From the NCBI GenBank assembly GCA_947476955.1, contig CANJSS010000020.1, positions 1 through 32,068 of the forward strand: DNA of 32,068 nt. Direction: 5' to 3'. The position numbers and the translations under genes are program-made. The notes beneath the pieces were generated by a model that saw only the letters and a program-made list of their open reading frames with translations, made no database searches and was not told the origin of the DNA. Of the stretch, positions 19,695 through 21,061 are shown one piece after another. This DNA is from Flavobacteriales bacterium (GTDB lineage: Bacteria > Bacteroidota > Bacteroidia > Flavobacteriales_D > Crocinitomicaceae). Positions within the stretch are counted from its first letter, which is position 1. Every line of letters begins with the position of its first letter.

Positions 19695-20078
19695 TTACAT
19701 CCATTTTGCTGCAAATCGGTTAAAATCCGACCGCAATTGATTAAAATTTTTCTCGAAACTCACAATAATATCTTTTTCTTTGGTATGGTAAATTATTTTT
19801 CTATGGTCTACTGCAATAGGGTTTTTATCCACCTCTTTTTCCAATATTTTTTCATTGTTTTTAATCAAATGAAAGATTTCATTAATTGCATTTTCTTGTA
19901 TCATCAATTGATTTTGAAACCTTTCCGTCTCCACCATTGCTTCGGCGGATGTGTTTTTTGAAGCAATTTCTTTTAAACGGCCAGTTAATATTCGTACTTC
20001 ATCCTTGTAAAAATCTAATTTGTTAGACCATTCTGTGTTTTCTTCGTGTTGCGTGTAAACCGACTCTTTTGTTTTCAT
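19695..20078 (-). CDS. Helical coiled-coil protein of unknown function
   Basis: A 127-residue soluble, highly charged and helical protein. There is a likely coiled coil over about 15-70 ('WSNKLDFYKDEVRILTGRLK', 'VETERFQNQLMIQENAI') and a second helical stretch at about 105-127 (FEKNFNQLRSDFNRFAAKWM). No signal peptide, cysteines or catalytic motif are seen. I recognise no named family, although short helical proteins of this kind occur in Bacteroidota. It appears monocistronic with its own terminator; its upstream region carries an 8-base inverted repeat. Confidence 0.6.
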   Translation of the reverse strand: MKTKESVYTQHEENTEWSNKLDFYKDEVRILTGRLKEIASKNTSAEAMVETERFQNQLMIQENAINEIFHLIKNNEKILEKEVDKNPIAVDHRKIIYHTKEKDIIVSFEKNFNQLRSDFNRFAAKWM

Positions 20079-20197: not shown

Positions 20198-20221
20198 TGG
20201 TGTTTTGAGATTCTTTTTTTA

Positions 20222-20310
20222 AGGACGTTTCCCTCCGGGTCGGGCTTTTCGTTGCAATCTTTTACTTTTGAAATAAAGTAAAAGGATTTTCTCTTCACTC
20301 CCTAACGCAA
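20222..20310 (+). repeat. Hairpin-bearing intergenic repeat of Bacteroidota type
   Basis: The segment runs from GGACGTTTCCCTCCGGGTCG through a central hairpin to CTCCCTAACGC. The hairpin has CTTTTACTTT at 20259-20268 and AAAGTAAAAG at 20275-20284, with perfect 10-base arms and a 6-base loop. The end motifs (CGTTTCCCTC-GGGTCGGGCT and CAATCC-like/TCACTCCCTAACGC) are what I remember from a dispersed noncoding repeat in flavobacterial genomes, where the central stem varies. Only one copy is present in this window. It stands 10 bases past the stop of the SafE-like gene and could also stop its transcript. Confidence 0.6.
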
Positions 20311-20320
20311 ACTAATATTT

Positions 20321-21061
20321 CTATTTTGCTGGTTTGTGGCAACAACTCATTTCTACCACTGGCGTTTGTCTAACGCGTGTTTTGGTGACGGAAACCTTTG
20401 GACTTAAATAAGGTATGTCTAGGTTCATTCCGCGCAGTATTACCAGTAAACCTATAGCAGTCAAAATATACGGAACGATTTTGGAAAACTTTTGGCGCAT
20501 TTTAGCATCTATTCTATTTGCCGCAAATCCAACTGCAATCATAGCTGGTAAAGTTCCAATTCCGAAGGCTATCATTGCAGAGGCGCTACCAATTAGATTT
20601 CCAGCTAAAACAGAATTTAGCAGCGCTGCGTATACCATTCCGCATGGTAAAAGGCCATTTAATATACCTAGAATCCCAATTTTGAATGGAGATTGTGAAG
20701 TAATTACCTTCCCAAGATTTTTACGAATGAAAACGTGGATACCGAAAGTAGGAAATTCGGAGAATATTGCTGACTTATACCATTTTTTCCAAGCAAACAA
20801 AATTAAAAATAGACCTGAAACAATACTTAAACCTTGTAAAAATCCCAATGTTTGAATCGTTAACCCAATGCTTCCCACAATCAATCCAAGAAACGAATAG
20901 CTTAGAATTCTGCCAAAATTGTAGTGTAAAACGCCATTTAAAATCGTCCAATTTGAAGTTCTTTTTACGGGAATAGCCAATGCAATAGGACCACACATAC
21001 CAATGCAATGTATGTTGGAGGTAATTCCTAAAATAAATCCTAGGGCTAATACTGTTTCCAT
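20321..21061 (-). CDS. SafE/TauE-like (DsbD_2) membrane protein of the cbb3 oxidase cluster
   Basis: A 246-residue protein with about six membrane segments. Paired motifs HCIGMCGP (C19, C23) in helix 1 and LLPCGMVYAAL (C140) in the middle mark the DsbD_2/SafE-like family that accompanies cbb3 oxidase genes (CcoH2-like annotation). The C-terminus carries 'SCCHKPAK', a possible metal ligand cluster. From position and cysteines it is inferred to help copper handling during oxidase assembly; sulfite export, suggested by the family name, is not supported. It is the last gene of the operon, 1 base after fixH. Confidence 0.85.
   Translation of the reverse strand: METVLALGFILGITSNIHCIGMCGPIALAIPVKRTSNWTILNGVLHYNFGRILSYSFLGLIVGSIGLTIQTLGFLQGLSIVSGLFLILFAWKKWYKSAIFSEFPTFGIHVFIRKNLGKVITSQSPFKIGILGILNGLLPCGMVYAALLNSVLAGNLIGSASAMIAFGIGTLPAMIAVGFAANRIDAKMRQKFSKIVPYILTAIGLLVILRGMNLDIPYLSPKVSVTKTRVRQTPVVEMSCCHKPAK

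Follow-up and report, generated by a model that had tools for sequence, protein, structure and literature searches.

What is the hairpin that lies just past the last gene of an oxidase cluster in a Flavobacteriales bacterium of the Crocinitomicaceae, and what does it do there? The locus belongs to a 32,068-nucleotide stretch (contig CANJSS010000020.1), analysed as a whole and called here the window, in which genes for a COX1-FixO fusion, FixP, a FixG-like protein, FixH and a DsbD_2 protein make up a cbb3-oxidase cluster before the element. A first-pass annotation had placed the hairpin directly after this cluster, quoted its two ends and a perfect 10-base stem, and assigned it to a dispersed, noncoding repeat family of Bacteroidota whose role is unclear. 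All of this holds. The quoted ends and the stem are present in the sequence, the latter as CTTTTACTTT at 20259-20268 and AAAGTAAAAG at 20275-20284 around a 6-base loop, and the element begins 9 bases past the stop codon (20321-20323) of the DsbD_2 gene. The family can also be named, as Rfam RF01705 (Flavo-1): the hairpin shares its sequence, core pairs and strand, and matches it (minus strand, 20317-20234, 54.5 bits, E 2.4e-9) above the gathering score of 42 bits. For this analysis we made two models of our own, R1 and R2. R1 gave 16 matches in 400 kb against 12 by a stricter hand-written pattern detector and was used in its place, and R2, which sets the limits used here, recovers the whole element (Table 1). 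The copy stands in sense orientation between two co-directional genes. The folding energy of this stretch is ordinary (z -1.60 for the minus strand and -0.40 for the plus strand), so that support beyond chance comes from family membership and covariation and not from energy.

Table 1. Coordinates of the Flavo-1 element, its parts and the flanking genes in the window
Feature	Positions	Strand	Basis
Whole type I Flavo-1 element	20220..20311	-	R2, 84.3 bits; RF01705 on 20234-20317, 54.5 bits
P1 5' arm GCGTT (minus-strand reading)	20304..20308	-	pairs with 20225-20229
P1 3' arm AACGT, one G.T pair in the window copy	20225..20229	-	sequence; covariation of relatives
P2 5' arm GGG	20300..20302	-	pairs with CCC 20242-20244; alignment of 30 copies
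P2 3' arm CCC	20242..20244	-	alignment of 30 copies
Purine-rich core, 5' side; two core pairs broken in the window copy	20285..20299	-	cmscan non-standard pairs
Core, 3' side ATTGCAACGAAAA	20246..20258	-	sequence, cmscan, alignment of 30 copies
Variable terminal hairpin including the perfect 10-base stem	20259..20284	-	sequence; wholesale stem variation between copies
P4 mini-hairpin CCC-GGA-GGG, GNA triloop	20231..20239	-	sequence; loop counts in relatives
DsbD_2 family gene (PF13386), upstream of the element, last of the cbb3 oxidase cluster	20321..21061	-	Pfam match
127-aa gene downstream of the element, same strand, without Pfam match	19695..20078	-	ORF and Pfam search

Comparison of the copies revealed one core common to two types of arms. 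Type I, to which the window copy belongs, runs GCGTNA-GGG-core-variable hairpin-core-CCC-GA-P4 hairpin-N'ACGC, while type II runs TAGCCC-core-variable hairpin-core-GGGAAATAGCTCC; the ten best-scoring copies from 24 pattern-selected genomes were all type II, as judged by eye. The two sides of the core are repeats of each other (GATWGNARYGGAWA), and in the folded strand its Watson-Crick pairs are interspersed with purine mismatches. The Rfam model already contains the core pairs, but its consensus joins them to one arm type only (TAGCC..); the window copy carries the second, GCGTNAGGG ... NACGCCC, with P1 and the P4 mini-hairpin as additions to that model. Among 126 copies no P4 hairpin was formed in 23, GNA accounted for 28 of 40 triloops, and GNRA or UNCG occurred in none of 17 tetraloops. 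GNA triloops are typical of DNA, and we count this loop usage in favour of a DNA rather than an RNA element.

Covariation of the stems, which the first-pass annotation had proposed as a check, is strong. A pattern for the right half of the element gave 129 matches, 110 of them unique with a left half that could be parsed independently of the pairs. Among these 110 relatives, the N:N' pair was formed in 107 (shuffled mean 54.5), R:Y' in 108 (87.1) and Y:R' in 92 (55.6), and the reverse complement of a copy's own P1 arm was found downstream in 97, against 28.1 with the arms dealt anew. In the alignment of 30 copies, 97.3% of 743 cells were paired, compared to 86.2% in shuffles, with changes on both sides in 15 of 25 pairs; note that the P1 pairs were pre-selected in the parsing of this alignment (A4), so that for P1 the 110-copy count is the independent test. 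In the core, the mismatched purine positions are conserved, not corrected to pairs, and are flanked by pairs that co-vary. This bears on templated (quasi-palindrome) mutation, in which template switching within a hairpin rewrites both arms together and covariation is kept without selection. The variable stem, which at orthologous sites is replaced wholesale and yet still pairs, is what such a process would produce, but conserved mismatches with co-varying pairs alongside are not, and we consider templated mutation most improbable as the source of the covariation. At the orthologous sites compared, it was chiefly the variable hairpin that was swapped; at one (genomes G068 and G090, loci L201 and L279), the variable hairpin differs throughout, together with four co-varying pairs, between conserved flanks. 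The exchange of the interior at this last site resembles a swap by conversion or re-insertion.

The window copy is one of nine in its genome, a number on which Rfam, R1 and R2 agree; the single copy that was to speak against a repeat family is thus not what was found. Matches occurred in 17 of the 60 genomes searched as relatives (own included), five of them among the 25 other members of the genus, and Rfam matches in 23 of 24 further genomes picked by a pattern-scan match, the eleven Flavobacterium among which hold from 31 to at least 127 copies each. Copy number is therefore patchy, from 0 to at least 127 per genome. The pattern scan of genome contigs returned at least 118 stretches, and the names among the matches listed are those of Bacteroidota save two Treponema, one Limnohabitans MAG and one uncultured bacterium; one of the two Treponema genomes had no Rfam match. 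In E. coli genomes, the joined ends of the element gave no match.

Single sites also gain or lose the element. A DsbD_2 homologue is present in 15 of 26 genomes of the genus, and with R1 and R2 the element was found beside it in two of these 15 loci (the window genome and G018) and was absent in 13, where the sole other match was weak (L253, 12.2 bits, E 0.37); in four of the element-free loci the next gene also appears conserved, as read by eye. At another site (L209), the element is absent in G112 and G090, whose orthologous flanks are too diverged to define insertion junctions. As to the state of the window copy, cmscan marked two of its core pairs as non-standard, and since both are kept in the orthologous copy of G018, the window copy may be decaying.

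The position behind the DsbD_2 stop codon had suggested a terminator, and we asked what the element would do as a bidirectional transcription terminator or 3'-end stabiliser of the oxidase operon. No terminator was called within 20220-20311. On a 2.0 Mb Flavobacterium contig, R1 gave 72 matches, of which 71 were used (one overlapping opposite-strand match was dropped) and three lie inside called ORFs; the other 68 lie between co-directional genes (30 antisense, 14 sense), divergent genes (19) or convergent genes (5). Convergent gaps therefore hold 5/68 copies versus 96/730 in the background of gaps of at least 100 bp (457 co-directional, 177 divergent, 96 convergent). In the many-genome sample, in contrast, 106 of 150 copies had both neighbours, with 38 antisense, 25 sense, 17 divergent and 26 convergent, and 26/106 is slightly above the 52/283 convergent gaps among those of 150-600 bp; in the window genome, gene ends make up 11 of the 16 known flanks of copies. 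The expected clustering after stop codons is thus missing on the contig and slight in the wider sample and the window genome, which leaves room for a mild lean toward gene ends in some genomes. Since a terminator needs neither the core nor P1 and P4, and none is called inside the element, we regard a terminator or stabiliser as a highly unlikely explanation even with the stop codon only 9 bases away. A terminator-like signal, with a small hairpin and a T-rich tail, was called on the plus strand at 20362-20376, outside the element and within the 3' part of the DsbD_2 gene.

The same contexts bear on whether Flavo-1 is a structured RNA, that is, an sRNA or UTR element acting on a transcript. This is how the family entered the literature: Weinberg et al. 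described the motif in 2010 as a structured-RNA candidate (PMC2864571), Rfam types it as 'Gene; sRNA', the text available to us of a 2022 review counts it among the abundant sRNA families and gives no function (PMC9029176), and RF01705 is also mentioned in PMC3765529 and PMC7682815. The strong covariation fits an RNA, the window copy would be sense in a transcript between two co-directional genes, and according to the sections available of PMC9723704, a number of the F. psychrophilum copies coincide with 5' transcripts. Those same sections, however, describe sense and antisense as indistinct in RNA-seq and many matches as lying outside transcripts, and the study came upon no clue to Flavo-1 function. 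We count this indifference to strand for a DNA element. Moreover, copies occur in all four gene contexts, and between co-directional neighbours antisense copies outnumber sense copies by 68 to 39 when two sets with at least one copy in common are pooled (p=0.0065; 38:25 in the many-genome sample and 30:14 on the contig, the latter with p=0.023). An RNA role is, in our judgement, unlikely. On the one contig, 40 of 58 copies have the folded strand as leading-strand template (p=0.005), with the origin placed by GC skew only, no dnaA found on the contig and 13 copies in a region of unclear skew excluded; this bias partly follows gene direction.

A different kind of evidence came from plasmids. When a composite copy was blasted against plasmids, 45 records were returned, none with more than 80% of the query and many with short matches, and a blast with a Shewanella element returned 52 plasmid records, from Vibrio (27), Shewanella (14), Photobacterium (10) and Aliivibrio (1). 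Thirteen plasmid records were fetched, some only around the match, so that copies elsewhere on those could be missed. R2 found copies on plasmids of Moraxella (M. bovoculi 4, M. ovis 2, M. catarrhalis 1 and one deleted), of Vibrio and Photobacterium (V. vulnificus pYJ016 2, V. alginolyticus 4, V. chagasii 2, P. damselae 2), of Shewanella (Shewanella sp. 3, S. baltica pS22303 3) and Chryseobacterium (2), and on those of Paraclostridium (2), B. ovatus (1) and P. vulgatus (1). The occurrence of the same fold on plasmids of Moraxella, Vibrio, Shewanella, Photobacterium and Chryseobacterium is new here, and with it the family reaches beyond its description in Rfam, to plasmids of Gammaproteobacteria and Clostridia. 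The deleted copy of M. catarrhalis (L298:7865-7923; 19.4 bits, E 0.068) has lost an internal part and kept both ends.

Eleven of the fetched plasmids carry two or more copies, and on 10 of them every copy has the same orientation (26/26, including the weak deleted copy); the exception is Paraclostridium (L292), whose two copies are opposed. MOB-suite classed the ten concordant plasmids as conjugative (two), mobilizable (six) and non-mobilizable (two, both with a relaxase and tra genes). In all ten the folded strand is directed away from the annotated relaxase/tra block, according to gene tables read by eye; in the Chryseobacterium and P. damselae plasmids the gene named relaxase is presumably one. 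Six of the plasmids have their copies upstream of the relaxase gene; three of F type (L404, L407, L428) have them beyond the 3' end of traI, and in two of these a lytic transglycosylase gene adjoins. The single copy of P. vulgatus (L427) is directed towards the relaxase. According to ORF calls, 23 of 30 plasmid copies have on their 5' side an oppositely encoded gene whose start faces the element, at 179-332 bp in 16 of these, and 7 copies, including both of M. catarrhalis, do not. The strand that would be sense in an RNA is thus mostly opposite to the gene in front, which is a further argument against that role. The plasmid neighbours include ArdC/zincin-like, antirestriction, ParB-like and DUF3560 genes. 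Note that the plasmid copies are not independent, because segmental duplications are possible within a plasmid (M. bovoculi) and several of the plasmids are related. The copies may occupy the leading region, and the folded strand of these plasmids would be the transferred strand.

Phages add a smaller set. Four pattern scans of 2.9 million viral contigs returned 33 stretches, of which about 15 look like true copies by eye, so that single-stranded phages carry Flavo-1 only rarely. In an ssDNA microvirus (capsid PF02305, E 2.7e-102, and a replication protein) and in a filamentous phage (PF05707), the element is on the coding strand. The hairpin site of phiX174, which we take to be n'-pas, a PriA site, offered itself for comparison: it too is a hairpin of the viral strand, with a GAAGCGG motif like that of the Flavo-1 core, which presumably resembles PriA-site motifs. 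Homology was rejected, however, as neither R1 nor R2 matched in the phiX174 stretch and the fold differs, the phiX174 motif lying in a perfect stem. Likeness to integron attC sites, prompted by the GTTAGGG end, was likewise set aside, the inverted ends being opposite in polarity to those of the attC consensus.

The plasmid relatives suggest that the active form of Flavo-1 is folded single-stranded DNA, and that it is neither an RNA nor a terminator. Flavo-1 would act as DNA whenever the strand described by Rfam, the minus strand in the window, is single-stranded; this strand would then fold, in the cell, into a multi-branched hairpin made up of P1, P2, the purine-rich core and the variable hairpin, to which type I adds P4. 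In conjugative plasmids, as in single-stranded phages, this structure would most likely recruit the replication or transcription machinery to the incoming or packaged single strand, in a role analogous to that of single-strand initiation sites (ssi) or of Frpo single-strand promoters. The folded strand is the one expected as ssDNA in both, which is the logic of ssi and Frpo sites, and we count the chromosomal antisense lean (68:39) as pointing in the same direction as the plasmid pattern. The tens to more than 100 dispersed copies of some Bacteroidota chromosomes, and the one in the window, could descend from such elements or share their role, and the window copy is best read as a dispersed, partly decayed relative of the plasmid and phage element. 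Tentatively, then, and with slightly more doubt than confidence, we propose that on mobile elements Flavo-1 would serve as an initiation site or promoter on single-strand DNA, with the chromosomal copies as dispersed relatives.

Several observations speak against this proposal. The window copy belongs to the sense minority, and two of its core pairs are broken. Most copies on the one contig have their folded strand on the leading-strand template and not on the lagging-strand one, where ssDNA is most exposed. The F-type copies lie past the 3' end of traI, the P. vulgatus copy points towards the relaxase and the Paraclostridium copies disagree with each other. Finally, the distance from a chromosomal copy to a gene start is not fixed, and the element is rare in single-stranded phages.

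Chief among the alternatives is a selfish repeat that is non-autonomous and, broadly taken, REP- or MITE-like. Some enzyme recognising the folded strand would copy it, so that the structure would serve spread with no gain to the host. The first-pass annotation had likened the hairpin to a REP element and proposed a search for a REP-type transposase gene. As in Flavo-1, REP/RAYT systems are described, in the portions available of PMC6006769 and PMC3733652, as dispersed intergenic hairpins with strand-specific structure, the former also placing atypical secondary structures beside Bacteroidetes subclass 2.6 genes. Flavo-1 is longer, and the RAYT association is absent in the genomes that we tested. 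Y1_Tnp is present in 19 of 23 Flavo-1-bearing genomes, but unmatched in the other four, which hold 96, 40, 70 and 76 copies, and Flavo-1 is unmatched in a Treponema genome that has 17 Y1 matches. The window genome does have one Y1_Tnp (RAYT-like) gene (L037, contig G000:C30, about 999-2031), yet this is bordered on both sides by the inverted repeat GCGCTGGATCTCCCGATCCTGCGC of a separate REP-like family and not by Flavo-1. Among 31 Y1 loci (this one and 30 of 84 matches, two from Treponema without Flavo-1), a clear copy was nearby in two and a marginal one in two, with about 3.5 expected at the density of the Flavobacterium contig. Mobilisation by RAYT was therefore rejected: four genomes lack Y1, the window's own Y1 gene has a different repeat, and two loci in 31 is no more than the density of copies would produce.

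Selfish spread by other means fits much of the turnover, including the high and patchy copy number (0 to at least 127), presence and absence at the same site (two DsbD_2 loci against 13, and the L209 site), flanks that differ between the M. ovis copies, and the orthologous site with a replaced interior and kept flanks. No target-site duplication was seen, however: among 33 type II copies in which both ends could be parsed, a 5-mer was common to the two flanks in 4, against 4.3 when the flanks were randomly reassigned, and in G068 flank duplications were no more frequent than chance. Nor did a mobilising gene emerge; the Y1/RAYT test failed, and when the 25 largest protein clusters from 164 loci were read by eye, the only recombinase-like one was Xer-like, at four loci and with no fixed position. 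Moreover, selfishness alone does not predict the one-way orientation on several plasmid types. We hold selfish spread to be a real possibility, although we would doubt it rather than accept it.

Among known systems, single-strand initiation or promotion on plasmids has a close counterpart in Frpo, whose logic in conjugative plasmids is set out in the available text of PMC11541004 and PMC9849209. As described there, Frpo and ssi sites share with the plasmid copies several same-way copies, usually upstream of oppositely encoded genes, of which one strand folds. A likeness in sequence to Frpo was not found, as judged from the Shewanella-element blast with its Vibrio, Shewanella, Photobacterium and Aliivibrio records only, and in one Shewanella element searched by eye for a -35/-10 pair, none was seen. 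In its widest form the idea would be a putative family of hairpins that serve initiation or promotion on single-strand DNA and bear no sequence relation to Frpo. Across Bacteroidota, Gammaproteobacteria and Clostridia, conjugative plasmids would have this family in common with a few single-stranded phages, and it would have colonised Flavobacterium chromosomes, where it may let RNA polymerase or a primosome load wherever its strand is single-stranded; so much taken together is conceivable, and we put it forward as rather speculative.

Flavo-1 has been a candidate RNA since 2010 and is still without a role in the literature that we found, and in the literature searched we found no link of it to plasmids or ssDNA. 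If the single-strand DNA role is correct, plasmids outside the F group would gain a recognisable signal for early expression or priming, the missing sense preference of the transcript study would be explained, and the tens to more than 100 matches annotated as 'sRNA' in each Flavobacterium genome would become DNA elements. A long-open question thereby becomes testable on laboratory plasmids.

Other observations concern individual copies. In three genomes of the genus to which the window belongs, the same genes flank a conserved variant copy (L018, L028, L036). In the viral contigs L158, L159, L156/L161, L164 and L323, Flavo-1 lies directly after a terminase-like gene, on the opposite strand; this terminase-like family, one of the 25 largest neighbour clusters, was recognised by eye in five viral loci, and one of four such proteins tested gave a weak terminase match. 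Finally, several Flavo-1 copies (L038, L061, L063, L072, L076, L113, L138) contain, by eye, a second repeat inside the variable hairpin, with an end like GCAATGACG that presumably resembles the published CGTC-type repeats, and the tip of the hairpin thus seems tolerant of insertions.
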